Part shown: one piece after another, positions 14,341-60,967 of the stretch
How the letters are laid out: every line of letters begins with the position of its first letter
Position numbering within the stretch: the first letter of the stretch is position 1
From: Phycisphaerae bacterium
GTDB taxonomy: Bacteria; Planctomycetota; Phycisphaerae; Phycisphaerales; UBA1924
Assembly (NCBI GenBank): GCA_030429705.1
Contig: JAUIES010000003.1
Coordinates: 186,001-250,000 of the forward strand
Direction of reading: 5' to 3'
DNA: 64,000 nucleotides
Notes under the pieces: model-generated
Seen by the model: only the letters and a program-made list of their open reading frames with translations
The model's database searches: none
Told to the model about the DNA's origin: nothing
Position numbers and translations under genes: made by a program

Positions 14341-14955
14341 ATGACTCGTCAATTTGGAACAATTCTGGTCGGGATGCTGCTGGTGGCTCAGGGGTGTCAG
14401 ACGCAGCCGCCCTATGGCAACCGCGCTGGGCGTGTGGAAGTCAGCGATGCGACCCCGCCCGAGGCTGCCGATTCGAGGCCGATGGTCAGTGACTTCATCT
14501 CGTTCAGCGATCAACTCGCTCAGCGCTTGATGCAGGATCTTGAATACACCGACCAACTCGCGCCGGCGTATTCAGATCGAACCACGATCCTGTACGGCGA
14601 CATCAAAAACGAAACCGGCATGGTTAGCACAAACGACTTTGAGGTCGTCCGCGAGCGCATGAAGAACCGACTCAAGCAAAGCCGCACATTCAATCAGAAG
14701 TTTCGTTTTTTGACCAGTCGACAACGCCTTGAAGAACTGCAGCGAACCGAACTCGGCGATGATCTCTTCAAGACCGACAGCGCGGGTCGGGTTCAGAATC
14801 CGCGGATCCATCCCGAAGACACGCTGCTCCTCAATGGCACGATATATCGCATTGGTCGGGGGGGCACGAGTTACTACCTCATGACCTTTGAACTCGTGCG
14901 GTTCAGCGATGGCGAAATCGTGTGGGTCAACGACTACGAGATCAAACGGTGGTAA
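14341..14955 (+). CDS. LpoB-like lipoprotein (peptidoglycan synthase activator family)
   Basis: A 204-residue lipoprotein. The signal peptide MTRQFGTILVGMLLVAQGC has its likely lipidated Cys at residue 19, followed by a Pro-rich linker. The LpoB-type domain reads TTILYGDIKNETGMVSTNDF, FEVVRERMKNRLKQSRTFNQ and LLNGTIYRIGRGGTSYYLMT, ending FELVRFSDGEIVWVNDYEIK. In enterobacteria, LpoB sits in the outer membrane and stimulates the synthase PBP1b. It is the first gene of a lipoprotein operon with AGAGGAG before the ATG, and it leads directly into the T6SS locus. Which synthase it would serve here is unknown. Confidence 0.75.
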   Translation: MTRQFGTILVGMLLVAQGCQTQPPYGNRAGRVEVSDATPPEAADSRPMVSDFISFSDQLAQRLMQDLEYTDQLAPAYSDRTTILYGDIKNETGMVSTNDFEVVRERMKNRLKQSRTFNQKFRFLTSRQRLEELQRTELGDDLFKTDSAGRVQNPRIHPEDTLLLNGTIYRIGRGGTSYYLMTFELVRFSDGEIVWVNDYEIKRW

Positions 14956-14957
14956 AC

Positions 14958-15515
14958 ATGCGCCTTGGTTGGTTGCTGGGGATAATGGTCTCGGCATTGC
15001 TCGCAGGGTGCGTTACGAATCAACCTCGATCAACTCGGCTGACGAATGTCGACTTCGAAGACCTGGCTGCGACCATCGCGCGACAGTTGCGCGCAAGTGA
15101 TGTGATCAACGAGCGATCGCCGGCGGATGAAATCTGGACGATTGCGATGGCTCGTGTTGAAAATCTCTCGGGCGATTTCATTCCTGAGAGTGAGCAATGG
15201 TGGCTCATGGAGCGCGTTCGTTCGTCCCTGCCCATTCGGACGCTCAGCGAAGAGCATGCGTTGCGACTGGTGATTCCCGTCGAGCGGTTGACTCGACTGC
15301 GCGGAAGGTCACCCGAACTCGAGCAGGCGGGGTTTGATCGCACACCGACGCATCGGATGGATGCCACCATCCGTTCGATTGCACGCGTTGGGGATTCCGG
15401 GCGAACGGACTTTTACAGCACCGAGTTTTCTTTGATCGATCTGTCAGACGGCGAGGTCAAATGGTCAGGAGCCGGTGAGATCAAGCGGGTTGCCTTCGGA
15501 CGAAGTTGGGATTGA
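14958..15515 (+). CDS. Second LpoB-like lipoprotein
   Basis: A 185-residue lipoprotein that starts two bases after the previous stop codon. The signal MRLGWLLGIMVSALLAGC has a classic LLAGC lipobox. The domain follows the LpoB pattern: FEDLAATIARQLRASDVINE, WTIAMARVENLSGDFIPESE, MDATIRSIARVGDSGRTDFY and FSLIDLSDGEVKWSGAGEIK. It is a diverged paralogue of the gene upstream. The start at 14958 is chosen because the signal peptide begins there; an earlier in-frame codon lies inside the upstream gene. Confidence 0.75.
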   Translation: MRLGWLLGIMVSALLAGCVTNQPRSTRLTNVDFEDLAATIARQLRASDVINERSPADEIWTIAMARVENLSGDFIPESEQWWLMERVRSSLPIRTLSEEHALRLVIPVERLTRLRGRSPELEQAGFDRTPTHRMDATIRSIARVGDSGRTDFYSTEFSLIDLSDGEVKWSGAGEIKRVAFGRSWD

Positions 15516-15540
15516 TCCAATCTTCGAGTCAGCAGTTGCT

Positions 15541-17160
15541 ATGAAGATTCAACGAACATATTGCTTGCTCTTCACCTTCATGGCTGCGGTCTCGCTGTCT
15601 GCATGCAAGTCACGCTCGTTTGAATCGATCATGCACCCGACTGATGCAGGGCAACTCGGGCGAGCGCGAAGTGTTGTTCTCGCTGAACAGGTCCGCCCGA
15701 TCGATCAGCCGTTGCGAGAGGCGACGCTTGCGATATTGACACTTGTGGATGGCTTGCCCGAGCACGCTGAGATTCCGATGCAGCGGGTGTATGAAACGCT
15801 GCGGACGCGCGGGTTGAACGCCAACAAGCAGGCGGCTGCAGCCGTGATCAATGAAGACAAAAAGACTTGGAAAGGTGAGCCCTACGAACAGGCATTGCTG
15901 TATCTGTATGTCGCCATGCAACAGGGGATGTCAGGTGAGTGGGGCAACGCGCGTGCTGCAAGTGTGGCGGCGCTCGAGTTGCTCGACGAATACGACCGGT
16001 ACCAGGAGGTCTCCAGAAATTTACCACCCACGACGCACGGTCATGTGGTGTCACAATCAGACCTTGCGCTCGCGCACTTGATCGCGAGCATTGCGAATCG
16101 GGCCATCGGTCGACACGACGAGGCAGATGATCATCTCGAACGGGTCGAACAGATTCGGCCGCACCTGCAGCCGGTAACGGACCAATTGCAGCAGGGCGCA
16201 TTCGATACGGTGCTCATCGTCGAAATGGGCGCCGGGCCTGTCGTGAGGCGGGCGGGCGAGGACGGCGCAATCGAGGATCTTGTGACCCGATGGCCGAGTG
16301 ACGATCGCCTGTTGGTTGTCAGCGACAACGACGGCGTGGTGCGTTCGGTGCCGCGTGCGTTGGATGTGAACGCCTTTGCGAACCTGTATCAATGGCACGG
16401 TCTGGCGGGTCTGCGACGCGGCAAATCCAATGTCGGATCGATGATGACAGTCGGGGGGGCTGCCCTGTTGACGGCGGACGACGATGAGGCACGCTGGGTC
16501 GGGCTCGGACTCCTGCTCGGCGGGCTACTTGCCAAAGCGGGCGCCCACGCTGATGACCGGTCACTGACGGTTTTGCCCCAGCGTTACTTCGTGGTGCCGT
16601 TGCAGTCGAGTGCGTTGTCAGGACCGTTGGAACTTCGGCTCGGCACTGGCGGCAGGGGCGCTTCGTTCGTCGTGCCCGCCCTCGCGTCGACTGCGGAAAC
16701 GCCACGGCTGATCGTGGTCCGCGTCCCGACGCAAGAGCCGGTCACAAGTGGGCTTACGGGTGAAGTTCTCTACAGCAACGACGCTTCGCAGCAACGATCG
16801 CCTGGAGATGACCTCCCATATATCCTCGGCGGGACCTGCGTGATGGCGCCAACGCATGAGGCATTGCGCAAGTATCAGTCAGCCGGCAATTTGCTCGATC
16901 TGACGACAGCGGACTTGCGCGAGTTGTATCGGCAGGAGGGCATCGTGCTGCCCGAAGACGAGCGGCCGGGTGTCCCGCCGGGTGCGCATGTGCTCGAGGG
17001 CGGGCGGTCGCTGGCGGCCCCTGTTGCTGGCTCGCTGGGATTCGTCCGACTGTTTTGCTCGCGACATCCGCCGTACCGCCCGCGGTCGGAGGTTGTCGCT
17101 CGTCTGGCACATGAGATCGGTTCCTTGCGAACCCGAACCACGATGGAGATTGAACAATGA
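15541..17160 (+). CDS. COG3014-type tetratricopeptide-like lipoprotein
   Basis: A 539-residue lipoprotein. The signal MKIQRTYCLLFTFMAAVSLSAC is followed by a helical repeat region (YEQALLYLYVAMQQGMSGEW, ARAASVAALELLDEYDRYQE, IANRAIGRHDEADDHLERVE). A beta-rich C-terminal half starts at about residue 215 with FDTVLIVEMGAGPVVRRAGE and contains a Gly/Leu-rich stretch VGLGLLLGGLLAKAGAHADD. Layout and neighbours match the COG3014 family, which in proteobacteria lies beside LpoB and YcfL genes. Molecular function is unknown. Its stop overlaps the next start (ATGA at 17157-17160), indicating coupled translation. Confidence 0.65.
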   Translation: MKIQRTYCLLFTFMAAVSLSACKSRSFESIMHPTDAGQLGRARSVVLAEQVRPIDQPLREATLAILTLVDGLPEHAEIPMQRVYETLRTRGLNANKQAAAAVINEDKKTWKGEPYEQALLYLYVAMQQGMSGEWGNARAASVAALELLDEYDRYQEVSRNLPPTTHGHVVSQSDLALAHLIASIANRAIGRHDEADDHLERVEQIRPHLQPVTDQLQQGAFDTVLIVEMGAGPVVRRAGEDGAIEDLVTRWPSDDRLLVVSDNDGVVRSVPRALDVNAFANLYQWHGLAGLRRGKSNVGSMMTVGGAALLTADDDEARWVGLGLLLGGLLAKAGAHADDRSLTVLPQRYFVVPLQSSALSGPLELRLGTGGRGASFVVPALASTAETPRLIVVRVPTQEPVTSGLTGEVLYSNDASQQRSPGDDLPYILGGTCVMAPTHEALRKYQSAGNLLDLTTADLRELYRQEGIVLPEDERPGVPPGAHVLEGGRSLAAPVAGSLGFVRLFCSRHPPYRPRSEVVARLAHEIGSLRTRTTMEIEQ

Positions 17161-17591
17161 ACAAGGGAAACCAGGTCCGAACTGGTCTGATTGCTGGCTG
17201 TGTCGTCGTTGCGATGGGTCTTTCAGGTTGTGCGCAGCGCCGGTATGACCCGCCGCCCTCAGTGGTCCATGATCAGGTGGAATATCCACAAGTTGTGGTA
17301 TCGCCTGATCTAGCGGGTTGGTTGGCTGCCGACCGACCGGTGGTCGGGTTCGGCGAGACCGGTGACGGGCCACTCCGTGTGACGGTTCCTGTGGGCACTC
17401 TTGTTGCCAGGGGCGAGACGATTCGTGTGCAATACAAGTTCACCTTTCTGGATCAGACCGGTCGTCCCTTATCTCCTGATGGGGATTGGCATTATGTACG
17501 CATGCCTGCGAACACCAAACGGTTCTTCGAGGGCAATGCGCTTGACCAACGGGCGACAGATTGGCAACTCGAGATTCGGACGGCGCGCTAG
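17157..17591 (+). CDS. YcfL-like (DUF1425) lipoprotein
   Basis: A 144-residue lipoprotein. The signal MNKGNQVRTGLIAGCVVVAM ends in GLSGC. The mature beta-sandwich carries LRVTVPVGTLVARGETIRVQ, YKFTFLDQTGRPLSPDGDWH and FEGNALDQRATDWQLEIRTA, matching the YcfL/DUF1425 pattern. YcfL genes sit beside lpoB in enterobacteria and with COG3014 in vibrios. The role is not established. It is coupled to the previous gene by an ATGA overlap and ends the compact lipoprotein run. Confidence 0.65.
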   Translation: MNKGNQVRTGLIAGCVVVAMGLSGCAQRRYDPPPSVVHDQVEYPQVVVSPDLAGWLAADRPVVGFGETGDGPLRVTVPVGTLVARGETIRVQYKFTFLDQTGRPLSPDGDWHYVRMPANTKRFFEGNALDQRATDWQLEIRTAR

Positions 17592-17687
17592 GTCTTTTTG
17601 ACAGCGGCGTGAAAGGTCGTAGACTCGATCGCTTTGACAAGCATGGGACGCGACACCACACGGGTGTTCGCCCTCAAGGTTGGGGTG

Positions 17688-19733: not shown

Positions 19734-20252
19734 ATGAAGATTTTGAGCCAACTTGCGATGGGTGTGCTCGGTGCAATTGTGGCACTCGGATCCGTCGGTT
19801 GTGAAACGAAACCGACGATGGGCGAGTTCAATGTGACCGTTTCGTTGGCTGACGGATTCAACCCCGTGGGAAGTGTCGAAGTCGATGTCGTGGGCGTGCA
19901 GGACGGACGCGATCTCGTTTCAATCGAGGGCATCTCCGTGAGCGACTACTTCGGGGCGATGAACCCGTATCGGCGTGATCTGGACCGAAAGATCGGGCTG
20001 GTGTTCCGGGCGGACACAGACCGCGAACACCGGATTGATCTCACACGCCGCGGACCGCATTATGCGAACTGGAAGAACGCGAATGTGATGCACCTGGTTG
20101 TTCTGGCCGATCTGTCGAGTTCGGGCGGTCCCGACCTGCGCCGCTTGACGCTTCCACTCGACAAGCATCGCTGGAAGCGCAAGAACCTGGAGATTCTGAT
20201 TGATGCAACAAAGGTATCCTCGGCGTATGCTCCAGAACCGGTGAAGAACTGA
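19734..20252 (+). CDS. Lipoprotein, candidate TssJ equivalent
   Basis: A 172-residue lipoprotein. The signal MKILSQLAMGVLGAIVALGS ends in VGC, and AAAGGAG precedes the ATG. The mature part is a small beta-rich domain: FNVTVSLADGFNPVGSVEVD, VVGVQDGRDLVSIEGISVSD, LDRKIGLVFRADTDREHRID and MHLVVLADLSS. Size, outer-membrane lipoprotein nature and the strand-loop layout fit TssJ, the lipoprotein that contacts TssM in T6SS. Sequence identity to classic TssJ cannot be shown by eye, so the assignment is an inference from context. It is the last gene before a clear terminator at 20291. Confidence 0.5.
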   Translation: MKILSQLAMGVLGAIVALGSVGCETKPTMGEFNVTVSLADGFNPVGSVEVDVVGVQDGRDLVSIEGISVSDYFGAMNPYRRDLDRKIGLVFRADTDREHRIDLTRRGPHYANWKNANVMHLVVLADLSSSGGPDLRRLTLPLDKHRWKRKNLEILIDATKVSSAYAPEPVKN

Positions 20253-20442: not shown

Positions 20443-23400
20443 TTGCGTGTGAACTATGGCGGTTTTGAGGTCGTTGGTTCGTTGCTTCAAGGGCCTCAGG
20501 GTGCCTCGGGGAAGGCACGCCGAATCGGCGAAAAGAACGCCGATTATTTTGTCGAACTGCAGTACCTCGACCCGATTGCAGCACCCGGGCAAGAACGCGT
20601 CGTCGTTGAGCAGTTTCTTGAACGGGCGCAGTTGCAACAGTCCGTCCGCAGTGACTACTGGGAGACGGTTCACGAGATTGGCGAAGTTGAAGACGGAGCG
20701 TTTCGAGTTTCAGATTTGTATCAGCGGAGCGCCCAGGCGCTGATCGATGGCCGCGTTCGACTCGCGAGCGCCGATCTCCAGAACATCGTTTCGAGTTGCC
20801 TGCTCGGGTTGAAGGACTTTCAAGAGCAATCGAGCGGCCGAGCGCACGGCCAATTGCGAGCAGAAGATGTGTTGATCGACGACCATCTTGGTCCGGGCCG
20901 ATGGCGTGTCGTTCTCAGCCGACCCTCGACAGCCACGCAGTCAGGCGAGAGTCTTGAGAAGGCGAGGCGTGCTGATGCTCAGGCGATCGGTGGCATCGTC
21001 CTCGGACTTGTCGAACACCGCCAACCACGCCCATTGCCTTCACGCGTCCAGGTGAACGAAGCCTGGAAACGCGTCGGACAATCGCAGGCCGGTTCATGGG
21101 TGACAGCGGTCAATCGATTGCTCGATCCTGACCTCGATCCATCAAGCGACTGGTTGAACGAGGCGATTGCAGAGTTTCGATCACTCAAGACGAAATCGGG
21201 CAAAAGGAGCCGATGGCCTCTGGTTGCTGCGGTTGTTGGTATTGCAATGATCGGTGGGGGTGTGTTTACAGCCGGGACACTTGGTGGGTGGTGGAACAAA
21301 ACGGAACCTGATACAGAACCATTGACCCTTGCAGCCTGGCAATCGTGGATCCGAAATTGCGATTGGGTGGTCCGCCTCAGGCGCGAGCTCGATCGCGCAT
21401 ATCCAGAGGCGACTCGTGACGAGAACGCTTCAAAGACTCGGTCGTTGCTAAATGAGCTGATTGCGGCGTTGCCCACCAGCGCGGACTATCGAAATCTGCC
21501 AAAGGGCGCGGAGAATGCCTGGACCCCACATCTTCTGATTCCGAATCCGACGAATACTGTCGGCGGACTCTTCGAGTCGAATGAAGATGGCCGAGTCGTT
21601 GACGAGAACGGACGATTCGTGCCGGATGCGGTGCACTTTGAGCACTTTTATGAAATCAAGAACATTCATCGCCGTGTGCAAGTTGTTCAAGAGGTTGTCG
21701 AGTCTATCGAGAAGATTTGTCAGGAATCAGGCAATCGAGGCGATGTTGAATCGTTCGTGAAGACGCTCGGTGCGTGGGGGGCACAGCCCGAACAGTTGAA
21801 GAGTCTTGAAGCCGTTCCACAGCAGTTGGTGATTGACGAAATCACAGGGACTGATTCGATTATCAACTTTGTAGCCGCGGTCGAGTTGAGCGCTCAAGCG
21901 AGAACACTTGAAACGGACCTTTCATTGCTCGTTGAACGCTGTGCAGCATTGAAGTCTCATGCGGACGAGAGCGCGGCAAACGATCCGGTGCTTGGTCGGC
22001 TCGACTCGATCGTGCAAGCAGAGATCGTGCGTTCAGTTGCGGATGGGCAGGATGCCGCGACGACGATCGTTGCGATCAAAGACGCTGCGGGCGGAGCGAA
22101 CGAAGTGCTCGATCGAATCGAGAGATTGATGAACGATCACTACACGCAGATTGTCCAACGACCATTTGTGCAAGCGTTGAACGATCGAGGGTTGTCTTCA
22201 AAAAACGAGTTTTCTGTTCTTGAAGATTGGCTTGAAGTTGCCGGGCAGTTGCGTTTCCGAAGGCTGACAGGGGCGAGGGATCTGTTCCGTAGCTTGCGTT
22301 CCCCAGATGGAATCACAGCGTTTCTTAGTACAGCCAATGAGAGTATTGAACAAGTGCAGGCGCTGCCTCAGGCAGCGACCGATGATCGAGTCCAATCGGC
22401 GATTCAGCGTCTTCAGTCGACGATGGCTGAGATTCGAACCGAGATCGATTCGGCCCTTGAACTGGAGGCGACGGTTGCGAACGAGTCTGAATTGAATGCT
22501 CGATTTAGTTCAATAGATTCTCGATTGCAAAGCGATGTGAAAGACATCGCCGCGACCGTCGTCAGTGAGAACAGCCGAACGCTCGCCCAGGCGATTGACC
22601 TGTTTGTCTCGACAACTTCTCCATTTCGAGATAACTCGCTGTTTGATCAAGAGATCAGGAAACTGCGCGATCGGCTTGAGATCGAAGCCCGTGAAGGGCA
22701 GTCATTGCAAACCGATGCCGAGCAGAGCGCACTGGCATTCAGGCTCGTTCAAGAGCATGATGCAGTCAGAGATCGATTCATTGCCATTCGAGATCACACC
22801 AGCGTTCAGTTCAACATTGAGCGCACAGAGTCAATCGACATTGATCCGTTGCGTGTAGCGTTCGAAGCATTGCGACATTCGCGACGATTGGCGTTGATCG
22901 GGTCGTCTGATGAGATATCAGCAACGCCTGACGATGTGTTGACGGCTGTTGCCAGTGAGATTGAAGCCGCGATCGGACAGGCTCGCGCGTTGGAAAACCG
23001 TCTCAACCAGTGGGTGGATGTGGCGCAGTTGAGCGAAGTTGCGTCCGTTTTGAACCCGACCTTGAGCGACAATACCGAGGTGGCTCAGGCTTATGGCGAA
23101 GCGATCGCTGCGCTACGCGGCCGAGTCACCAACGCGACAGATGTGCAGGGAAACCAAACCGACCTGCTTGCAACGGCGAGCGATCCTCGATCACCAGCGG
23201 AGTTGAGGCGTGCGGCTTTCCAACGAGTTATGTCGAGCGGGTCCGATTGGCCGGCGACACCTGACGATCTGACTGCGTTTATTGACTGTGGCACGAGTTT
23301 GATCGCGAGTTTGCAGCGAGCAACCGACCATGCGTGGGATGTACAGGTGGTGCAAGATGCGATTGGGGAGCGATGGCGCGTCGCGATGTCGAATGCGGCC

Positions 23401-24756
23401 ACAGAGACAGATTTCGTCGCGATTCGCGGGCTTCGCGATAGCGCGGGTCTCGATGGCAGCGCGGAGACCGCGTTGTCGAGCGAGATCCGTCGTAACCTGG
23501 CGGTGGTTGACTTGAAGGCTGCGCTCGCGGCGTTGCCCCGATTGAATGACAGTCAGGCCGATGATGCCGAGGTGCGTCGAACCGTTGACGGATGGTTGCA
23601 ACAGCATGAGCCTGTGATCAACAATGCGGCTTGGCTCGGGGAACTGCGATCCGCGTTCAACGATACGAGTCAGAGCAGTGGGGAGTTTGATCCGGGTGCT
23701 TATGGGCCGGGGACGACGAACACAGGTTGGGTCGGTTCGGTTGATGCTGAACTCAACACCATTTCGTATCGCAAAGGTGGCTGGACGCTCGAGTTTCGCC
23801 GCGTCACGACGGGCGATACTGAGGATGTCTGGTTTCTTGGGACTGAAGAAGTTCCTCTCGGACTTTTGCTCGAGACGGTCCCGCATGATCAACTGCAGGT
23901 CGATCATGCGGAGGGTCGAAAAACGAACGGCCCGCGCGGTTGGGATGTCGACGATGCTGGCAATGTACTTTCGTCGACGAGTTGGTTCGAGTATCAGACG
24001 AGCCCCCTGGATCGCTCGAGTTCGATCGGAGATTTCAATCAGTTCGGTCTGTATAGCCCGGACTTGAGCCAGGCGGGGGCTTCTGCCATTCTCAATCAGT
24101 CAGACGGTGCGTTGAAAGACGATTTCCCGGCTCAGAACTTCATGCTCGAGACCATCGAGTATTTTTGCGCTCAAACAGGGTGTGTCCTGCCTTCAGAAGA
24201 GGTGTGGTTGGCCGCGGTGACGGAGCAGTTTGCGCAGGCGGGGCTCGGGTCGCCGCAAGTGAACGGAGCATCGGTTTCCGCACTCGCATTGCAAGTACGC
24301 GACGCGCAGTGGTTGAATCAATATCAGTACACGGAACAACTTCGAGCCGACGGAAATCTTCAGCCTGGTCACGACTTCTGGTGGAAGTTCTGTGTGTTTC
24401 CGTGGCAGCGCGGTGCGGATGCTTCGTCGGTGTGGACCGGAGTTGATGATCAACATCTGCTGTTCGTTCCAGTTTCGCATGGCAACGCCAATGGATGGAA
24501 GCACCTGATTGGCAATGTCGGCGAGGTTGTGACCGTCGCAGGTGGTCACGCGGCGATCGGCGGTTCCGCCATGTCGCCAGCGAGTGTCCCGGTGACGACT
24601 CCGATCGCGTTAAGGCGGAGCCATCTGCCCGCTGCGGATATCGGTTTCCGGTTGGCGATGAAGGTCCCTGCAAGCGATCTGAACCCGAGTCTGCGCAAGC
24701 GTGTTGAGGGTCTGTTGGCGAATGACAAAACACCCGCTCAGTTTCCGAGCAGGTGA
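20443..24756 (+). CDS. Giant membrane protein: pseudokinase head, coiled periplasmic region, SUMF1-like end
   Basis: About 1,437 residues. Residues 1-250 resemble a protein kinase: ADYFVELQYLDP, an HGQLRAEDVLID loop (135-146) in place of HRDLKPxN, and DAQAIGGIVLGLV (178-190). The catalytic Asp is absent, so it is a likely pseudokinase. One TM helix (about 258-280) is followed by about 900 residues of mostly helical sequence. The C-terminal 230 residues look like an FGE/SUMF1 (C-type lectin-like) domain: LPSEEVWLAAVTEQFAQAGL, LIGNVGEVVTVAGG, IGGSAMSP and AADIGFRLAMKVP. The active-site Cys pair of true FGE enzymes is missing. It is paralogous in layout to the 33,027-37,502 protein. It could fill the place of PpkA. 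The start is TTG at 20443 or GTG at 20449. A short hairpin spans the stop codon (24731-24755). Confidence 0.75.
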   Translation: MRVNYGGFEVVGSLLQGPQGASGKARRIGEKNADYFVELQYLDPIAAPGQERVVVEQFLERAQLQQSVRSDYWETVHEIGEVEDGAFRVSDLYQRSAQALIDGRVRLASADLQNIVSSCLLGLKDFQEQSSGRAHGQLRAEDVLIDDHLGPGRWRVVLSRPSTATQSGESLEKARRADAQAIGGIVLGLVEHRQPRPLPSRVQVNEAWKRVGQSQAGSWVTAVNRLLDPDLDPSSDWLNEAIAEFRSLKTKSGKRSRWPLVAAVVGIAMIGGGVFTAGTLGGWWNKTEPDTEPLTLAAWQSWIRNCDWVVRLRRELDRAYPEATRDENASKTRSLLNELIAALPTSADYRNLPKGAENAWTPHLLIPNPTNTVGGLFESNEDGRVVDENGRFVPDAVHFEHFYEIKNIHRRVQVVQEVVESIEKICQESGNRGDVESFVKTLGAWGAQPEQLKSLEAVPQQLVIDEITGTDSIINFVAAVELSAQARTLETDLSLLVERCAALKSHADESAANDPVLGRLDSIVQAEIVRSVADGQDAATTIVAIKDAAGGANEVLDRIERLMNDHYTQIVQRPFVQALNDRGLSSKNEFSVLEDWLEVAGQLRFRRLTGARDLFRSLRSPDGITAFLSTANESIEQVQALPQAATDDRVQSAIQRLQSTMAEIRTEIDSALELEATVANESELNARFSSIDSRLQSDVKDIAATVVSENSRTLAQAIDLFVSTTSPFRDNSLFDQEIRKLRDRLEIEAREGQSLQTDAEQSALAFRLVQEHDAVRDRFIAIRDHTSVQFNIERTESIDIDPLRVAFEALRHSRRLALIGSSDEISATPDDVLTAVASEIEAAIGQARALENRLNQWVDVAQLSEVASVLNPTLSDNTEVAQAYGEAIAALRGRVTNATDVQGNQTDLLATASDPRSPAELRRAAFQRVMSSGSDWPATPDDLTAFIDCGTSLIASLQRATDHAWDVQVVQDAIGERWRVAMSNAATETDFVAIRGLRDSAGLDGSAETALSSEIRRNLAVVDLKAALAALPRLNDSQADDAEVRRTVDGWLQQHEPVINNAAWLGELRSAFNDTSQSSGEFDPGAYGPGTTNTGWVGSVDAELNTISYRKGGWTLEFRRVTTGDTEDVWFLGTEEVPLGLLLETVPHDQLQVDHAEGRKTNGPRGWDVDDAGNVLSSTSWFEYQTSPLDRSSSIGDFNQFGLYSPDLSQAGASAILNQSDGALKDDFPAQNFMLETIEYFCAQTGCVLPSEEVWLAAVTEQFAQAGLGSPQVNGASVSALALQVRDAQWLNQYQYTEQLRADGNLQPGHDFWWKFCVFPWQRGADASSVWTGVDDQHLLFVPVSHGNANGWKHLIGNVGEVVTVAGGHAAIGGSAMSPASVPVTTPIALRRSHLPAADIGFRLAMKVPASDLNPSLRKRVEGLLANDKTPAQFPSR

Positions 24757-31400: not shown

Positions 31401-32998
31401 TCACACGCAATGGGCTGTCAGCGTATCAAGCCTATATCGCCACGCACTGGGTGAAATCGAAGTTGAACGAGTTGCCAGACACGGACTTCGCTCAGGTTGT
31501 CAAGGAAAGGGCCGAAGATCCGAACACGCCTCGTCGAGGGGCTGACTTTAATTTGTCAGTTTTCCCTTGGCTTGGCGATCGGAATAGTCGACTTGAGCCC
31601 TCGTTCGATGATGTCGTGGCAGCCGATGTCCTCACCATCGTCGGCAATCTGGGGCGCATCATCGAAAGCGACACACGACTTCTTGATGTTGATGAGTTGA
31701 GTTCGAATTGGCAAACCGTTTCTGCGTTGGTCGATGTTTACAGAGCCGCATATATCGGCTATTGGATGACGGAAGTACCTAAAAAGTACAAACCGACGCC
31801 GACTGACGGATCATCACAAGCTTGGGCCAACGCGATCAAGACGATCTCTATGAATCAGGACCAGGTGTTTGAAGGCATCTATTCGATTACCAACCGATCT
31901 ATCGAAGCGCTGCAAGCCGTTGAGATGTCGCCCACAGCGGGCAGTGCGGTTCAAAAGTATCTCGCGACGCTCGAATTGGATGCACTTGGTTTCAAAGTCG
32001 GGAGTCTTGAGAAAGGCGTTGGTCGCGTCGCTGCCTCGGAGATGATCTACCGATGGACCAGGCTGACTGACAACTTCCAGGCAGCGTGGCGAGATTTACG
32101 CGAGGACCTGGATGCACCCGGTGAGAATATTCGAAGCACCTACTTTGCTGCTTGTGTCGAGGCACCAACAACACCGGCTCGCGTCTATTGGGCGGGTGTT
32201 GCCGAGATCATGCTCAAAGCCGTTCAAATCAGTGTTGATGCGGACGGTACGGCGAAGCGTGACGCAGTCTGGGCGCTGGGCAAGAAGTTCCCGATCTCGA
32301 GGGATGGGTCAAATGTCGGCGAGATGACAGCTGACGAATTTGAGTCGTTTCAAGATCTTGTTGCATGGTTTGACAGCGCGGTGACCGCAGAACGGGCTGC
32401 GGTGGGCAGCCCTGTGACAGGGTTGCCGCCGAGTGTCGCCAGAATGCTCGACGCGGTTCGCAGGGGGCAAACGCTGCAAGATCGAGACAAGGAAGTGCTC
32501 AGCGGAGCCAAAGATGTGGTTCGTTGGATTCAAGGGCTCAATGAGGGGGGGAGTCAGGGATTGACGATCCACCTCGTTCAACTTGATGATGAAGTTCAGT
32601 TTCGCGAGAATCATCAGTATGTGCGCATTCTGCGCGGCAACCAACCTGTCGAAGTTGGCGATGGCGAAAAGCCGGGGCAGCGACAGGGCACCTACCGAAC
32701 CGTACGAAGTGAAACGACTGAAGCGCTGTTGACACTGCCCGTGCCATCTGAAGGCGCTCCTATCGATTTCCTGTTCTGGGCGAACTCGCAAGAGTTTCGG
32801 CCGGATGGTCAACCAAAGGCAAGAGGCTCGTTGTCGATGCCGTGGCATGGCTTGCGTGCGATTTCGGATGGGCGACTGGTTGATGGGAATTGGGTTGTTC
32901 CGCTGCGCATGGAATCTGGTGCGGGGCCGTTCAGTGTTCGCGTCGGTGGGCTGACCGCACCGCCTGACTCGTGGCCGACGCTTGCGGATTGGGACTGA
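28445..32998 (+). CDS. tssM: T6SS inner-membrane protein TssM (IcmF family)
   Basis: 1,517 residues. Two N-terminal TM helices are followed by a cytoplasmic NTPase domain with Walker A GEPGSGKT (about residue 130) and DTAGRLM as the Walker B region. It continues LVIPADSLIKDSANDLERKG and YIVISKADRI (NKxD-like). A third TM (ILLTAGTLLAVGAGLWTYFA, about 437-457) precedes a large periplasmic domain of about 1,050 residues. TssM spans the envelope and binds TssJ and TssL. Length is slightly above the usual 1,100-1,300, mostly in the periplasmic part. GGAG lies 7 bases before the ATG at 28445. It is followed by the tagF-like gene after 28 bases. Confidence 0.95.
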   Translation: MGSLSMFLNLPMPVKAAIFVVTGGGIMGLMYILMMSGIIQGSLGYLLLIAMAIAAAVFGIYKFFSKRMEKRKAKPFEQKMADSASATPTGVSDPNSRAKLDDLRKRFEEGIQVFKEHGKDLYTMPWYVIVGEPGSGKTEAMRHSNVGFPPGLQDQLQGVGGTVNMHWWFTNQSVMIDTAGRLMFDDIEPGNVNEWGEFLKMLRTARPNCPLNGMLLVIPADSLIKDSANDLERKGGKIAQQLDNIQRALGVRFPVYIVISKADRINGFREFFEELTDPVMQMQMMGWTNPNDLDTPFDPSMVEQHLKSVRERLVRRRFSLLADPVNSDDPMGQRIDQVDALYAFPDSLVKLSPRLRRYLEMVFVAGEWSQKPLFLRGIYFTSSMREGDALDADLADVLGVQVDALREGKLWERDRSYFLKDVFMEKVFREKGLVTRESNVGKSRRRQSVILLTAGTLLAVGAGLWTYFASARLEQSIDGTSRDMAAIAEMISPDLVNDNDRQTRPSVALVQPFSGFYLGVPTAGESGGLTRIKLQRDAKFRADSGIKKDPIFWFASAATGDLSERLKEAQSFLFDQYALRAFVNEARARIGKPHRLNSDAQRMSDAELLGVDRGAEWWSDHAVDALTSLLEIESVGTDEKLVLSEVDYRRWLESFSNYPSQLPGEYRRFLQSEDEDKTLGWENLTEEDKTFLVGVLFERFGAEGDGLAEALGGGTEQSQEVIRRGVESFQLSWTGGDGGQATLLSLLNSFSEAARAYQTAESAVIRFTGFENAQTSTAFESARDEWSGLVTALHDERVELEAVLNTTVAKRSSAGAAQESTLLENLMQWTSTNLKTEAKQRATQVANDRFGQLAQAIPETLTVEDEGSAKFLAEMRQSLETARLAYLASVDEEIDNAMSALIGDGNGSSGLIATLIKSGDSNNVLYVERLTAIDAVRDYITKPVTSAPDVAAFASAIDTLSSHIKEEQNKLPASGEDSRAGLTGSVTRNGLSAYQAYIATHWVKSKLNELPDTDFAQVVKERAEDPNTPRRGADFNLSVFPWLGDRNSRLEPSFDDVVAADVLTIVGNLGRIIESDTRLLDVDELSSNWQTVSALVDVYRAAYIGYWMTEVPKKYKPTPTDGSSQAWANAIKTISMNQDQVFEGIYSITNRSIEALQAVEMSPTAGSAVQKYLATLELDALGFKVGSLEKGVGRVAASEMIYRWTRLTDNFQAAWRDLREDLDAPGENIRSTYFAACVEAPTTPARVYWAGVAEIMLKAVQISVDADGTAKRDAVWALGKKFPISRDGSNVGEMTADEFESFQDLVAWFDSAVTAERAAVGSPVTGLPPSVARMLDAVRRGQTLQDRDKEVLSGAKDVVRWIQGLNEGGSQGLTIHLVQLDDEVQFRENHQYVRILRGNQPVEVGDGEKPGQRQGTYRTVRSETTEALLTLPVPSEGAPIDFLFWANSQEFRPDGQPKARGSLSMPWHGLRAISDGRLVDGNWVVPLRMESGAGPFSVRVGGLTAPPDSWPTLADWD

Positions 32999-33026
32999 AC
33001 ACAGGCATCGACCGGGGACTGAACAG

Positions 33027-36000
33027 ATGAGTGATGAACAGGGCCGCATCTGGGTAGGAGCATTCGGGAAACACCCCGGATGGGATGACCACATTGCGGA
33101 CCAGGGTCTTGAGACCGAGTTGCTCACACGGGTCAAGCGTTTGCTGTATCTCGAGGGCATCGGCGGCAATATCGATTCTGGTGCCTGGGCTGAGCTCGAT
33201 CCGGATGAGCATCTTGATGGATTTGACCATGTTTTTCTGTGGCGTTGGGCGGGGGGGCTGGTCGCTGGTCGGCTCTGGAGTTCGAGCGACGGGAAAGGGC
33301 GAACGCGATATCCGATGATCGTGTGTGCTCATTGTCGAGGTCTTGCAGGTGAATGGGTCGCTGGACCCTGTCTGGATGCTCTTGACGACCTGGCGACCAA
33401 TTGTCGGGCCGCAACTGACGCCGCGGGTGTGATGACGGCTGTTGACGATGCTCGGCGAAACCTGCGTTCGGCGGCCGCGACCGCTCCACTGGCATCGACC
33501 GAGCCACTTTCCACGCCCGCTGCACTTGCTCAGATTGCTGATTGTGAACAAATGAATGCTGAAGCGCTCAGTCGGGTTGTGTATCAACTCGAGCGTGAGT
33601 TCAGTTCGTTCCTTCTGACCGATTTGGACAGCGGCACACGCTCGCGGACGATTGATGTGCGACCTCGCCATATGCGTGTTCCGGCGTGCAGAGATCGTTC
33701 TGGGGAAGCGTGTGATCTTTGGCTCCGTTTTCTGCTCGAACGAACAGACCCTGTGGCTCCGCTCGTCGCGATTGTGCGACGGGGTGAGGGCACTTGTGAT
33801 TTGATTGCGGGTGAGCCGACGCGTGGGCAGTTTGCCTGTTTGCAGTCTTCTCTCAAACGGGTGCCTTTGACAACCGAGATCCCGTACACCATCGATGAAG
33901 CATTTGCTGATCGCGTCTCGAAGCGAGTCGAGGCGGCTCGCACGGGTGATCTTCGCGATATTGATCCTGGGCACCTCGTCGAAGCGCCGACGCGAACGCT
34001 TCGTACACCCGTTGCTCCGGATCGATCGCAGATCAAGTTGATCGGCATGGTCGCTGCCGCAGTGATTGTCGTGTTCCTCCTGATCTTCGCAGTGATCAAG
34101 ATCGCGGGCAATAGTGGAGGTGGTGGCAGTGGAACACCAGACCGCGATCGCGCAACAAGCCGTTCTGATTCAGCCGTTGATGATGATGTATCGCCAGCGG
34201 TCTTGACTTCAGATGAGATCACGAAACGGGTGGAAGCGTTTCAGGATTGGAGTCGATCGTTTGGCAGTTGGTTCGGCCCGCTCGCGACTGTGAAGGGTTC
34301 AGACAGGGAGATTCTCGCTTCGGATGCCTACCTCAATGAGCATGTCCTCGCGCCGATCGAGCGTGCACGAGAAGCGGGGATTGTGTTCGACCCTCTTGGC
34401 GTGGTGAACAATCCGCCGCCGACTGTGTTTTCATTGGTATCCGATCCACCAGCAGAGGTCTCAACAACAGCGGTTTGGGATCGCACGCAACGAGCACAAT
34501 CAGTCATTGGCGAAGTCCGTGCTGGGCTCCTTGCCTGGCCGATTCGCGAGCGGGTGATGGCGCTAGCCGATCGGCTCGATGCGGCGGGTGTTGTTGCACC
34601 GGTCGCGGATCTCCGTGCGGCCGCCGAGGCAGCAAGTCCAAATGGCGGGGGGGCAATCATGCCGGCGATCGAAGCGCTGGTGCTCGCCGAAAACAATGCA
34701 GCGGTGCTTGATGCGGCCGATCGAATCGAATCGATCGTCGATGCAATCGAAGTCATGCGGACCTCTGATGATGCGGTTTTGCGGGAGGAAGCCGAGACGC
34801 TACACGCACTGCTTGAGGGTGTTCGCTCATCCGCAGATGTCACGCAGTTTGCCGAACGAGCGATTACGCTAAACGATGCCACGCAACTTGCGACTTCGAT
34901 CAGCAGTTTTGCGCGGACCGCGTTCGCCGATGTCGACACGACCGTGTTCGAGTCTCAGAGTGCTGCCCACACCGGTTCTGAGCGAGGAATCAAACGACTG
35001 CGACAGTGGCTCGCCGACGCGAAACGGCCGGAGATGCAAAAACTCGATCCCGCACTTGATCCAAGGCTGCACGCCGAAATCGAGACTCGTCTGGCCGAAC
35101 TCGATCACGCGTTGGGTCTGTTCGATGAACAGGGTCGGACAGCATATGCAGCGGAGATCGAATCGCTTGAGGCGAGACGAGCTGCTCTCGGCGAATCAGC
35201 TGCGACGATTCATGACCTCGCGTGGAACTCGAGCAACAGGGGCGGGATCGAGAGCGGCATGACCACGCTCGCCCGAGACATTGCTCGACTGGACCGAGAC
35301 ACGAACGATCTCCGAGCGGTGATCAGTGTCGACATTGCTGAGAAACTGGCAGACCTGCGTTCGCGCGACTTGGTTTCGACATCGGGCCTTGATGCGATCG
35401 ATGAGTTGTGGCGCATCGGCCGAAAAGCACTGCTCGAGCGGTACAGTCGCGATGACAATCATCTCGCCCTGTTTCGCGATGCACGAACGCTGCGGGAACG
35501 ATTGCAGCACCTCGAAGATACGACGCTGACGCTGCAGCGTGAGTTCGATCTGCCCGTGACCTGGGACCGCGGTGCCGTTCAAGCGCGCCAGGACAATGCT
35601 CGCAATAAAGCCGTGTCCACGCATGCTCGCGCGGTTTCGGCAGGTGCGATTGATGACGAGGGTTTCGAAGAGATCGTGTCATTGGTACGGTCATATACAG
35701 AGGACTCGCTCATCGATTTGGCAGCGTTGATTGACTCAATTGCGACTGTGCAATCACTGGTGGATGGTTTGCACGCATTCGATGAGGAGCCGCACAAGGG
35801 CGAATCGATGAGGGCGTTGCTCGCTTCGATGGGCGAAGAGCATGAGGCTGCTCGGCTGATTGCACCGGTGTTGTATCAAAGTATCGATGCCCTTCAGGCG
35901 GTCATGGATGCATCGCAAGAGCGCGATGAACTGGTATCCATCCTCAACGATTCACGAACAACTGACGCGTCCGCATTTGCTTCATGGCGAGCACTTAGCG

Positions 36001-37502
36001 GTGTGACACCCGTTTGGCCGGGGAGTCTGTCGGAGTTAGAGAGCGACCTGATTCTGGCCAGTCGCATTCGTACGGCGAGTTCTGGTGTGTCAGATGCTGT
36101 GCGCCGCTCGGCGATTGAGGCGGCGGTCGCGGAAACGCTGCGGCAACGGTGGGTGACAGCAGCGAATGCCAGTGCAGATCGCGCCGAACTGTTGGCAATC
36201 AAGCGCCTGCGCGAGAACTGCGGTGGTCATCTGGCCGCTCTGGCAGATACAACACGGTTCAATTTGGGTGTGGATTCGATCGAGCAAGCGATCGATTCTG
36301 GTGAAGACGACGATGTGAATCGTGCACGGTTGCGGTCGGCACTCGCATCATTTGAATCGCTCGAGTTGAATGAGCAAGCGGACGCGTGGTTGACAGAGGT
36401 TGCTCAACTGGCAGATGAGGAAGCCGATCAGGTGCCGCCGCTTGATCCGTCTTCGGTTGGCCCGGCGCGTGCAGGTTGGCGTGTTGTCGAAGGCAGTACT
36501 GAAGAGCGACTCGTCTACGAGCGTACGACGGGTGACCAGCATCGGTTGGCGTTTCGATTGGTAACCCTTGCCGATGGTCGAGCGTCGTATGTGTGCGAGA
36601 CTGAGTTGTCGGTCGGCGTTGTCGCGGGGCTTGTCGATGATGATCTGCGCTTTGCGCAGGAGTTGATCACCACGCTCGATGGAATCGGACTGCAAAGTGA
36701 TGAGCGTCGTGGTATGTCCACCTGGGTGTGGATGGGTTCGGAAGACGCACCAGCGTTGAGCGCTGCTGAGTCGTGGGTGTCGGTGACCTGGATCGCACCC
36801 GACGAATATGCGGTTGACGGCGGCAACGCAGACTACCCGAGTTTGTCGCACCCTCTGCAGCGCATTGCGTTGTCTGATGCCATGTTCATTGCGGCACGAT
36901 TGGGCTGTCGACTTCCAACGGTCGATGAATGGCGTGCTGCGCATGCATCCGTCCCATCTGCCCAGGGCTGGAATGTGCGCGACCAGCGTTTTGCGCGTCA
37001 AGTTGAACATGTGCGGTCAATCGGTGCCGATTGGAGCGACTCGAAACTGGCAGCACTGATGCCGGATTTCAATGGGCAGTCTCCACTCGCTGGCGATCCG
37101 GTTTATCCGAATGACGACGGCCAGGTCTGGCTATCTGAGGTTGACGCCGGCCCAGATGCTGCGTTTCGACACATCGTCGGCAATGTGCATGAGTATGTGA
37201 TCATCGATTTCGCTGGACAGGTTGAGGCCATGGGGTCATCGGCGCGTGCACCGTCAGATGAAGACATCAAGCGATGGTTTCCGATTGCGCGCAAACTGAA
37301 GGCCGGTGTCATCGGCGGATCGTTGTTTAGTCGATCTGATGCTCCGGCGACGGAGGTCACGCCGGTGGATGATCTCATCGGTGGAGCGACGGATGTAGGT
37401 GTTCGACTTGCGTTTAGTTCGGAATCAGGACGGGTCCAGCGGAGCGTTGCATCGCGGATTCGAGCGTTGATTGATCGAGCACCGTTTTTGACGGCTGAAT
37501 AG
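33027..37502 (+). CDS. Giant membrane protein: TagF-like head, coiled region, SUMF1-like end
   Basis: 1,491 residues. Residues 8-105 match the TagF (ImpM) pattern: WVGAFGKHPGWDDHIADQGL, FDHVFLWRWAGGLV and a GRTRYPMIV stretch. TagF acts as a post-translational brake of T6SS. A TM helix (about 337-360) precedes a Gly/Ser-rich linker, then about 800 mostly helical residues. The C-terminal region begins LDPSSVGPARAGWRVVEGST and ends with HIVGNVHEYVIIDFAGQVEA, VIGGSLFSRSD and ATDVGVRLAFSSE, a SUMF1/FGE-like fold without the catalytic Cys pair. The C-terminal half is laid out like the 20,443-24,756 protein, pointing to a shared ancestor. GGGGA precedes the ATG at 33027. Fusion of TagF to a periplasmic sensor-like region is unusual. 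Confidence 0.8.
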   Translation: MSDEQGRIWVGAFGKHPGWDDHIADQGLETELLTRVKRLLYLEGIGGNIDSGAWAELDPDEHLDGFDHVFLWRWAGGLVAGRLWSSSDGKGRTRYPMIVCAHCRGLAGEWVAGPCLDALDDLATNCRAATDAAGVMTAVDDARRNLRSAAATAPLASTEPLSTPAALAQIADCEQMNAEALSRVVYQLEREFSSFLLTDLDSGTRSRTIDVRPRHMRVPACRDRSGEACDLWLRFLLERTDPVAPLVAIVRRGEGTCDLIAGEPTRGQFACLQSSLKRVPLTTEIPYTIDEAFADRVSKRVEAARTGDLRDIDPGHLVEAPTRTLRTPVAPDRSQIKLIGMVAAAVIVVFLLIFAVIKIAGNSGGGGSGTPDRDRATSRSDSAVDDDVSPAVLTSDEITKRVEAFQDWSRSFGSWFGPLATVKGSDREILASDAYLNEHVLAPIERAREAGIVFDPLGVVNNPPPTVFSLVSDPPAEVSTTAVWDRTQRAQSVIGEVRAGLLAWPIRERVMALADRLDAAGVVAPVADLRAAAEAASPNGGGAIMPAIEALVLAENNAAVLDAADRIESIVDAIEVMRTSDDAVLREEAETLHALLEGVRSSADVTQFAERAITLNDATQLATSISSFARTAFADVDTTVFESQSAAHTGSERGIKRLRQWLADAKRPEMQKLDPALDPRLHAEIETRLAELDHALGLFDEQGRTAYAAEIESLEARRAALGESAATIHDLAWNSSNRGGIESGMTTLARDIARLDRDTNDLRAVISVDIAEKLADLRSRDLVSTSGLDAIDELWRIGRKALLERYSRDDNHLALFRDARTLRERLQHLEDTTLTLQREFDLPVTWDRGAVQARQDNARNKAVSTHARAVSAGAIDDEGFEEIVSLVRSYTEDSLIDLAALIDSIATVQSLVDGLHAFDEEPHKGESMRALLASMGEEHEAARLIAPVLYQSIDALQAVMDASQERDELVSILNDSRTTDASAFASWRALSGVTPVWPGSLSELESDLILASRIRTASSGVSDAVRRSAIEAAVAETLRQRWVTAANASADRAELLAIKRLRENCGGHLAALADTTRFNLGVDSIEQAIDSGEDDDVNRARLRSALASFESLELNEQADAWLTEVAQLADEEADQVPPLDPSSVGPARAGWRVVEGSTEERLVYERTTGDQHRLAFRLVTLADGRASYVCETELSVGVVAGLVDDDLRFAQELITTLDGIGLQSDERRGMSTWVWMGSEDAPALSAAESWVSVTWIAPDEYAVDGGNADYPSLSHPLQRIALSDAMFIAARLGCRLPTVDEWRAAHASVPSAQGWNVRDQRFARQVEHVRSIGADWSDSKLAALMPDFNGQSPLAGDPVYPNDDGQVWLSEVDAGPDAAFRHIVGNVHEYVIIDFAGQVEAMGSSARAPSDEDIKRWFPIARKLKAGVIGGSLFSRSDAPATEVTPVDDLIGGATDVGVRLAFSSESGRVQRSVASRIRALIDRAPFLTAE

Positions 37503-37605: not shown

Positions 37606-39684
37606 ATGGACGAAAGACTGGGTCGACGCAACGGATGGTGGGATACCGAGCGTGTTTGCAATCACATGCGAACCTCGATGATCTTGAGCCTGGTGGGGTT
37701 GGCGTGCGCTGTTCAATCAGCACACGCCCAGGATGCTGGTGGCGATCCTGGAATTGAGCCACCTCCCGAGTTGCTTGACGCTGAGATTCCGCTCGAACAA
37801 CCCGTGATCGATGAATCGGGTGGTGATGACGGGTTTCCAGAATTGGTTGTTCCGCCGGAGGTTCCGGATGCGCAGATTGATGGCCCGGCGTATCCGGTCA
37901 GCACCATCGTGCTTGAGTATGTGCAGGAACACCCACAGCAACCGACGATTGATGTGCTCCTGCAGATCCCGGTTCATCTGGCTCAGACTCCAAGCGGTTG
38001 GGTTGGCTTGCGAGACGGGATGCCCGCGACGAGCCTGAAGATTGCTGATTTCAGCGATGGGCAAACGCGCACGCTGCACGCATCGGCGATTCGTGCCATC
38101 GGGCGCGCCATCGTTGAGTATTTTGCATCGCAGGAAATCGCCGGTGTGCTCGTCGAGCCGGATGCTACGCAGATTCAGGCGACCGGTCTGGATCGGCGAA
38201 AAGAAGGCGAGACGGGCCTCACCTTGAACATATTCACGGTGAAAGCAACCGAGTTGCATTCGATTGCTTCAGGTGATCGCATTCCGGTCGAGAATCGTGT
38301 CGATGCCAGTCAGCACCGTTGGATTCTGGATCGGTCACCGGTTCAGCCTTACAACGAGGACGCGGGCGAGGGTGAACGATATGACCTTGTTCGGCGAGAT
38401 TTACTTGATTCATATGCATTGCGATTGAATCGACATCCGGGCAGACGCGTCGATGTTGCGGTTGCCCGCGGAGCAAAGCAAGGAGATGTGGAGATCCACT
38501 ACCTTGTGAACGAGAGCAAGCCGTGGACGGTGTATGCACAGGTTTCCAACACCGGCACGCAAAACACCAACGAGTGGCGTGAACGGTTTGGATTTGTGCA
38601 CAACCAGTTGTCCGGGAATGACGACATTCTCTCGATCGAATATGTCACCGCCGGATTTGACGCTTCACATGCGTTGATCGGTTCGTACGAAGCACCGATG
38701 GGTGACATGGAAAATCTGCGTTGGCGCGTGCAGGGGAGTTACAACGAATTCGATGCGTCAGAAGTTGGTGTGCTCAATGAAAACTTCAGCGGCTCAGGCT
38801 GGACCATCGGCGGCGATCTCGTTTGGAATGTTTTCCAGAGACGAAATCTGTTCGTTGATGTGGTGGGGGGTGTTCGGTACGAACACATCGAGATATCGAA
38901 TGTGACACTGGGTGCGAACTCAACCGGCGAAGACGACTTGTTCTTGCCGCACATCGGTATTGAAGTCGAGCAACTGACAGAGATGTCAAGCTTCTTCGGC
39001 TCGCTGAACCTTGAGTGGACCATGTCGGATGTTTCGGGCGCGCACATCGCGTCGCTGGAACGACTGGGTCGACTGTCTCCTGATCGTGACTGGACGACGC
39101 TGCAGTTCGATACCAGTTTGAGTGTTTATCTTGAGCCGTTGTTCAACTACGCAGCATGGTCTGATCCATCGACGCCTGACAGTTCGACATTGGCACATGA
39201 GGTGTTCGTGTCTCTGCGAGGCCAGTACGCGTTCGGGCATCGGTTGATTCCGAATGCGGAGCAGGTCTTGGGCGGGCTGTACACCGTTCGCGGGTATGAC
39301 GAATCGGTCGCTGCGGGCGATACCACCTGGGTTGGGACGCTGGAGTATCGATTCCATGTGCCTCGTGCGCTCTCGATTGAAGAGAACCCGACCGGGACAC
39401 TTTTTGGTCGCGCGTTCAAGTCGAGACCTCAGCAGGTGTACGGCCAACCGGACTGGGATCTGGTGCTCAAGGGTTTTGTTGATGTCGGTCAGACCTATAA
39501 CAGCGATCGTCGTGTATTTGAATCGAATGAAACTTTGACGGGTGCGGGTGTAGGTGTTGACCTTCAAATCCTCACGAATCTGAGTTTCCGGGCGGATTGG
39601 GGCTTTGTTCTCAATGATGTTGGTAGCGGTGTTGCGGAATCGGGGGACAGCCGAGTGCATCTCGTGCTGACAATCCTCTTCTGA
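37606..39684 (+). CDS. Two-partner secretion outer-membrane transporter (TpsB, ShlB/FhaC family)
   Basis: 692 residues. A long signal region has its hydrophobic core at MRTSMILSLVGLACAVQSAHA (about residues 21-41). An acidic Pro-rich linker is followed by two POTRA-like domains (about 97-300) and a beta-barrel of 16 or so strands. The conserved L6-loop motif appears as VRGYDES near residue 565-570, and the protein ends in VHLVLTILF with a terminal Phe. TpsB proteins export their TpsA partner, encoded immediately downstream. The ATG at 37606 has AAGGATTGAG upstream; M21 (37666) is an alternative start with a more usual signal length. The preceding 100 bases are AT-rich and may hold a promoter. 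Confidence 0.9.
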   Translation: MDERLGRRNGWWDTERVCNHMRTSMILSLVGLACAVQSAHAQDAGGDPGIEPPPELLDAEIPLEQPVIDESGGDDGFPELVVPPEVPDAQIDGPAYPVSTIVLEYVQEHPQQPTIDVLLQIPVHLAQTPSGWVGLRDGMPATSLKIADFSDGQTRTLHASAIRAIGRAIVEYFASQEIAGVLVEPDATQIQATGLDRRKEGETGLTLNIFTVKATELHSIASGDRIPVENRVDASQHRWILDRSPVQPYNEDAGEGERYDLVRRDLLDSYALRLNRHPGRRVDVAVARGAKQGDVEIHYLVNESKPWTVYAQVSNTGTQNTNEWRERFGFVHNQLSGNDDILSIEYVTAGFDASHALIGSYEAPMGDMENLRWRVQGSYNEFDASEVGVLNENFSGSGWTIGGDLVWNVFQRRNLFVDVVGGVRYEHIEISNVTLGANSTGEDDLFLPHIGIEVEQLTEMSSFFGSLNLEWTMSDVSGAHIASLERLGRLSPDRDWTTLQFDTSLSVYLEPLFNYAAWSDPSTPDSSTLAHEVFVSLRGQYAFGHRLIPNAEQVLGGLYTVRGYDESVAAGDTTWVGTLEYRFHVPRALSIEENPTGTLFGRAFKSRPQQVYGQPDWDLVLKGFVDVGQTYNSDRRVFESNETLTGAGVGVDLQILTNLSFRADWGFVLNDVGSGVAESGDSRVHLVLTILF

Positions 39685-39813
39685 TTTTGCGATTGCGCGT
39701 GTATCTTAGTCTGTGACAGGATGTTGTCGTCACAGGCAGGTCCGATAGAAGAACCACCGGGTCGAACTCGAACGCGTGTTCGAGGCGGCCCATATGTAGA
39801 TCAGGAGCAGGCG

Positions 39814-60955: not shown

Positions 60956-60967
60956 ATGGAGCCGACC

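Follow-up and report, generated by a model that had tools for sequence, protein, structure and literature searches.

In textbooks, LpoB is the protein that activates a peptidoglycan synthase, and its Pfam entry is named for that function. In E. coli, LpoB switches on PBP1B by way of UB2H, a domain found in class A penicillin-binding proteins (PBPs), and Typas et al. placed LpoB and its UB2H dock in enterobacteria at a stringent 100-bit cut-off (PMC3060616). A review has termed Planctomycetes peptidoglycan-intermediate and characterises that group by its lack of class A PBPs (PMC5814848). In this study, we analysed four genes at positions 14341-17591 of a 64,000-nucleotide stretch from a Phycisphaerae bacterium (assembly GCA_030429705.1, contig JAUIES010000003.1, positions 186,001 to 250,000; the whole stretch is called the window). 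The genes encode two LpoB-type proteins, a COG3014-type protein and YcfL, and a type VI secretion system (T6SS) locus lies directly downstream. We found it probable that they form an autonomous outer-membrane lipoprotein scaffold, independent of PBP1B activation, which came to stand beside a T6SS once in the lineage. The LpoB-family annotation misleads here, because members of the family are part of a conserved multi-lipoprotein module and most of the genomes concerned lack a class A PBP match.

The four genes are consecutive on the + strand, closely packed and in the same direction as the downstream T6SS genes. LpoB1 (14341..14955) encodes an LpoB-fold lipoprotein with lipobox Cys19 and matched PF13036 with 25.9 bits over residues 60-201 (cut-off 22.3). 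LpoB2 (14958..15515) is more likely to start at ATG 14958 than at GTG 14922, and it scored 18.9 bits against PF13036, which is under the cut-off. The LpoB1 profile aligned with the LpoB2 profile at 99.7% probability (E 2e-26), and 14 of 23 LpoB2 orthologues matched PF13036 at E<=0.01. At the level of sequence profiles, LpoB1 and LpoB2 are paralogues. The third gene (15541..17160, likely start ATG 15541) encodes a 539-amino-acid lipoprotein with a lipobox cysteine and a TPR-like helical N-terminal half. No Pfam family matched it and no search named it; we call it COG3014-type after an earlier note made from the DNA letters alone. A search of open-licence papers found none on "COG3014". YcfL (DUF1425; 17157..17591), whose ATG overlaps the COG3014 stop, has a lipobox and matched PF07233 over the cut-off (32.8 bits against 28.3). 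The YcfL family profile also matched the solved lipoprotein-type structures 3o0l (E 2.1e-9) and 4gio (E 2.4e-8), which are probably DUF1425 proteins. These results bear out the LpoB-LpoB-COG3014-YcfL set proposed in the earlier note. Its Pfam assignments held for LpoB1 and YcfL but not for LpoB2, which is identified only through homology to LpoB1.

Conservation of the cassette was examined in the best 80 of 109 related loci found in the genome collection. In 42 of these loci the sequence extends for at least 6 kb to either side of COG3014; 40 of the 42 had all four genes, and this conservation is beyond chance. The lipobox cysteine was invariant in all four family alignments (23 rows for LpoB1), supporting the lipoprotein nature predicted for the four products. 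Alignment A1 was made without the partial L060 (G025); A2-A4 held 23, 23 and 26 rows, the others being missing, merged or poorly delimited, and A5 and A6 held the window with 63 and 50 of the 80 loci, respectively.

The AlphaFold model of LpoB1 (mean pLDDT 83.0) matched the C-terminal domain of E. coli LpoB (4q6z) with a VIA Z of 11.3 (rmsd 4.2, 120 aligned). Other folds trailed, namely PelC (Z 6.6), GNA1162 (6.3), FlgT (3w1e, 6.3), CsgG (6.2) and the LPHT ring (8z5n, 6.1), with HpaA also on a list that does not prove other folds excluded. LpoB1 belongs to the LpoB family by both its PF13036 score and its predicted fold. However, the LpoB equivalog TIGR02722 gave scores of only 22.6 bits, for LpoB1, and 21.6 bits against a cut-off of 110.55. 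The region ahead of the domain also differed. The distance from the cysteine to the aligned domain was about 32 residues in LpoB1 versus 57 in E. coli LpoB. From the cysteine to the conserved Asn, E. coli LpoB has 89 residues with 17 prolines, compared with 70 and 6 in LpoB1 (counted by eye) and 50 and 2 in LpoB2. The long proline-rich linker of the E. coli kind was therefore not found in LpoB1 or LpoB2, in which this region is shorter with fewer prolines. The COG3014-type protein was modelled with a pLDDT of 92.7 and a pTM of 0.92, and its residues 21-222, approximately, aligned with TPR proteins; the best row, with Z 12.9, covered residues 21-221, and helical repeats commonly score this high. 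The C-terminal half was assigned no fold.

The earlier note linked the cassette, through LpoB, to a peptidoglycan synthase. The genome of the window (G000; 3.49 Mb, 8 contigs, 96% complete) gave no match to PF00912, the class A PBP family, which was matched in 10 of 14 control genomes, leaving no matched synthase of this class on which LpoB could act. Two PF00905 and two SEDS (PF01098) matches were found in the same genome, and its transpeptidases are presumably class B. In a set of 61 genomes (G000 and 60 relatives), PF00912 was matched in 2, and G000 was not among these. PF00912 was absent in 28 of the 30 COG3014-bearing genomes of this set and in 59 of 71 in a phylum set of 246 genomes; the two sets overlap. 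Among the 246 genomes, 34 matched PF00912, so the phylum as a whole does not lack class A PBPs; 12 of the 34 had COG3014, versus 9.8 expected (p=0.42), indicating no association. The PF13036 match of LpoB1 is what favours the classical function, activation of a PBP1B-type class A synthase. Against it stand the absence of PF00912 in 59 of the 61 genomes, the low equivalog score and the enterobacterial range given for LpoB and UB2H. We consider this reading extremely improbable and already refuted, unless the 4% of the genome that is missing contains a class A PBP; the lack of PF00912 matches led us to reject LpoB1 as a class A PBP activator.

A cell-wall regulator that does without class A PBPs was also considered. 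In this case the targets of the LpoB proteins would be pairs of SEDS proteins and class B PBPs, or some other wall enzyme. In its favour, LpoB is the nearest of the listed folds to the LpoB1 model (Z 11.3 against 6.6 for PelC). The two PF00905 and two PF01098 matches would supply such partners, and YcfL stays beside lpoB in E. coli. However, the module is patchy, with COG3014 in 30 of the 61 genomes, and a general wall factor would be expected to be distributed more evenly. The shorter linker, poorer in proline, also counts against it, and we know of no LpoB action on SEDS proteins. A wall regulator of this kind therefore appears rather improbable.

The relationship between the cassette and the T6SS was investigated in the 61 genomes, in which a T6SS was scored by a VipB sheath match. 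COG3014 was found in 30 genomes and VipB in 17, with both in 9, and 21 genomes had COG3014 without VipB. In the 9 genomes with both, COG3014 and VipB lay within 40 kb on one contig in 3 (G000, G032 and G002) and more than 40 kb apart in G010, G011, G014 and G033, while G027 and G060 were too fragmented to judge. Within family f1 (37 genomes), the two occurred together in 8 genomes versus 7.8 expected (Fisher p=1). In the stretches read from G013, G010, G014 and G020, the cassette was not ahead of the T6SS locus; it stood elsewhere in the genomes of G010 and G014, and G013 and G020 gave no COG3014 match. The T6SS locus in these four relatives has the order P685, lipo6, an FGE-like gene (not called in G020), u354 and tssK. 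Because it begins with P685 and no cassette stands ahead of it, the T6SS locus proper starts at window position 17634.

In the best 80 of 109 loci, T6SS head genes followed the cassette in L090 and L091, as in the window, and these three keep the order smpB-cassette-P685-T6SS. In L092, smpB and the cassette were present and the contig ended inside COG3014. The window, L090, L091 and L092 form one clade with a support of 100/100, nested among stand-alone cassettes. L091 (RHKP01000012.1) is labelled as a Cyanobacteria metagenome-assembled genome, and its COG3014 groups with a Phycisphaerales locus (100/99), so it is probably a mislabelled bin.

In the phylum set, in which COG3014 hits were partly weak (E up to 5e-4) and at most 5 candidates were scored per genome, COG3014 and VipB lay within 40 kb on a contig only in G000 and G193 (about 27 kb, opposite strands). 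They also shared a contig in G106 (about 105 kb) and G250 (about 258 kb). Nineteen phylum loci were inspected, and an LpoB gene stood in the row of COG3014 in 18 of them, some at weak E values up to 3e-4; the exception starts 141 bases from a contig end. YcfL was detected in 7 of the 19, and none of the 19 showed T6SS genes. The earlier note had suggested that the cassette may serve the T6SS, by controlling wall growth or anchoring around its membrane complex or by repairing the wall after firing. With VipB as the T6SS marker, phylogenetic profiling found the cassette mostly away from the T6SS, and together with the chance-level co-occurrence in the family and the four T6SS loci without a cassette ahead, this largely overturns the proposal. 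These results indicate that the position beside the T6SS most likely arose by juxtaposition in a single lineage and does not reflect the function of the module. They also caution against inferring a T6SS function from neighbourhood alone, as the same cassette stands elsewhere in most relatives.

A 42-nt gap separates YcfL from P685. It holds a promoter-like element, TTGACA-16-TAGACT (17598..17625, + strand), with 10 of 12 positions agreeing with the sigma-70 consensus, and both hexamers are identical in the gaps of the window, L090 and L091. The scan found this 1 site in the gap, where shuffles gave 1.3. The motif is not confined to P685, as matches of 10/12 were also present before LpoB1 in L090 and, within the window, before ShlB. 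A terminator scan found 4 candidates versus 4.4 expected. The element suggests that the T6SS may be transcribed separately from the cassette.

Several observations weigh against an autonomous module. The promoter-like element was not found before P685 in the four loci without a cassette, in which the best match was 9/12 (P 0.12, L074), and the 42-nt gap may allow read-through from the cassette into the T6SS. The head arrangement has been kept while COG3014 diverged to about 55% identity between the window and L090/L091, which hints at selection. VgrG lies about 7 kb upstream of the cassette in L111 (on the G002 contig) and in L132, a second, independent proximity. Two linkages among seven lineages have a rough chance of 0.008 (10 kb) to 0.026 (40 kb) in a model with a 50-kb locus in 3.5 Mb, with G027 counted as unlinked and G060 left out; because the distances were chosen after the data had been seen, these figures are weak support for a link between cassette and T6SS. 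In the 246 phylum genomes, COG3014 was found in 71 and VipB in 58, with both in 29 versus 16.7 expected (p=1e-4). Without family f30, in which all 13 genomes with either have both, the p value was 0.08. Many phylum assemblies are fragmented, so linkage can be missed, and the absence of PF00912 rests partly on incomplete genomes.

The module could have been recruited in this lineage as an outer-membrane collar or wall organiser around TssJLM, comparable to the ring of FlgT-type proteins in the flagellar motor. The LpoB1 model also matches FlgT and the LPHT ring. The conserved order in the window, L090 and L091, the VgrG proximity in L111 and L132 and the phylum co-occurrence would fit such a T6SS accessory. 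On the other hand, the T6SS loci of four relatives have no cassette ahead, COG3014 and VipB are more than 40 kb apart in four genomes, and co-occurrence in the family is at chance. The T6SS locus also has a lipoprotein of its own, lipo6, and the promoter-like element lies between the two gene sets. We regard a T6SS accessory as unlikely, and co-option of the module in the one clade has a similarly small, if real, chance. A flagellar H-ring role could not be judged by co-occurrence, as FlgI (flagellar P-ring family) was found in 61 of 61 genomes, versus 2 of 61 for PF00912, and is hence uninformative.

The T6SS itself is genuine, with matches for TssK, TssL, TssM, TssA, TssB, TssC, Hcp, ImpE, TssE, TssF, TssG, a TssH-type AAA protein and VgrG. 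TssL consists of DotU only (242 amino acids), and it lacks a peptidoglycan-binding extension, as the earlier note had stated. P685 (17634..19691, + strand) is the first gene of the conserved locus and lies outside the cassette. The lipoprotein lipo6 (19734..20252, + strand), whose lipobox cysteine is invariant in 7 T6SS loci, is a natural candidate for a TssJ equivalent and possibly serves as one; a comparison with solved TssJ structures gave no significant match. YcfL was rejected as TssJ, as TssJ/VasD chains appeared only at E 0.5-0.56 in the YcfL search and the alignment of YcfL with lipo6 was limited to an 11-column lipobox stretch.

Two very large proteins (20443-24756 and 32982-37502) flank u354-tssK-L-M, and relatives keep one or both. 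The former matched no Pfam family over its cut-off, and the latter has an FGE-sulfatase-like match near its C-terminal end at 21.5 bits, under the cut-off of 23.3. An ShlB/FhaC-type transporter and a 3347-amino-acid two-partner secretion (TPS) exoprotein (37606-49764) lie inside the locus, between the tssM side and tssA. Matches to this pair stand directly before tssA in G032, G010, G014, G011, G003, G013, G002 and G020; since they are kept there in these eight genomes, the pairing of T6SS and two-partner system is a conserved trait. A CHAP-domain protein (60956-61786; 26.4 bits, cut-off 26) just ahead of VgrG is a candidate for a T6SS effector that degrades the cell wall. In L132, a PG_binding_1 protein (L132:5137-5766, 43.5 bits) separates VgrG from the cassette. 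The genome of the window also has a second, divergent VipB-like sheath gene (G000:C4:460610-461464, 158.6 bits), and similar second copies occur in G032, G021, G033, G036 and G005.

A further protein, fam5 (mostly 550-800 amino acids), stands beside the cassette in 26 of the 80 loci and is lacking in the window. Single members show weak FlgO/LpoB/DUF3280 traces. P685 was tried as a degenerate fam5 and rejected (hhalign 0.1%). Apart from fam5 and the cassette itself, every gene family was limited to 5 or fewer of the 80 loci. A TPS exoprotein stands immediately before the cassette in L107:1-7401 and L118:3-9154, and L118 also has ShlB. ShlB/TPS was rejected as a general partner, as ShlB was matched in 33 of 61 genomes and was a direct neighbour in only 2 of 80 loci. 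The TPS neighbours would suit a complex of the CsgG/PelC/HfaB sort that exports or anchors a surface polymer, either an adhesin or an exopolysaccharide. PelC, CsgG, GNA1162 and HpaA are on the fold list of LpoB1, and a related gene set on a Sphingomonas plasmid has a nucleotide-sugar dehydrogenase and a diguanylate cyclase nearby. However, the TPS neighbour is limited to these two loci, and the lack of any other frequently recurring family also argues against an export complex, which we find doubtful.

The autonomous scaffold may be pictured as follows. The four genes would be a widespread envelope module, and the four lipoproteins probably assemble into a single complex on the periplasmic side of the outer membrane. 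In this complex, the LpoB-fold domains may dock or oligomerise, the TPR-like COG3014 protein would serve as a bridging scaffold, and YcfL and fam5 may adapt the scaffold to its client. A class A PBP would not be the client machine, since such proteins appear to be lacking in the host. In one Phycisphaerales-type clade, the module would have come to lie directly ahead of a T6SS locus that retains a head gene and perhaps a promoter of its own.

The LpoB/COG3014/YcfL neighbourhood, which the earlier note described as known from gamma-proteobacteria, was seen outside the phylum on plasmids and, in part, as E. coli ycfL-lpoB. On the Sphingomonas hankookensis plasmid pSZ.B2R2_2 (L199), LpoB (65.1 bits against PF13036), a COG3014-like, a YcfL-like (22.3 bits) and a fam5-like gene (24.6 bits) stand in a row. 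The COG3014-type protein of the window is homologous to the neighbour of this LpoB (BLASTP E 3e-10, 149 columns). On the Marinobacter plasmid pHP-187, LpoB (89.6 bits) precedes a COG3014-like match, which is weak (53 residues, E 9e-3) and is the gamma-proteobacterial one. The plasmid search with COG3014 gave two weak matches only. Unlike the window, both plasmid rows have a single LpoB, and the annotation of the stretches shown includes no T6SS gene; the four Sphingomonas genes have no clear lipobox.

The COG3014-type protein shares its TPR-like N-terminal half and lipobox with NlpI-type TPR lipoproteins. NlpI was the top row in Foldseek, but the E value was just 0.012, and helical repeats match many proteins. 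LpoB1 shares its predicted core fold with the CsgG/PelC/GNA1162/FlgT group, several members of which form outer-membrane rings, but the likeness is lower (Z 6.1-6.6) than to LpoB (Z 11.3).

The adjacent ycfL and lpoB genes of E. coli (b1104-b1105) are the only two that the profiles pick in a 12-kb stretch of MG1655. In contrast to the window, this stretch has no COG3014-type gene and a single LpoB, with a longer proline-rich linker and a class A PBP as partner. It is conceivable, and we offer it tentatively as something short of an even prospect, that the LpoB family predates the function for which it is known. Together with COG3014 and YcfL, and often fam5, LpoB would then make up an ancient outer-membrane module with a native role unrelated to class A PBPs. 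Enterobacteria would have kept ycfL-lpoB, lost COG3014 and gained the proline-rich reach and the UB2H dock, by which LpoB became the PBP1B switch. Bacteria with only SEDS/class B enzymes would keep the original machine, which one clade wired to a T6SS. An envelope function not yet characterised is suggested by the module, and YcfL of E. coli may still have a part in it.

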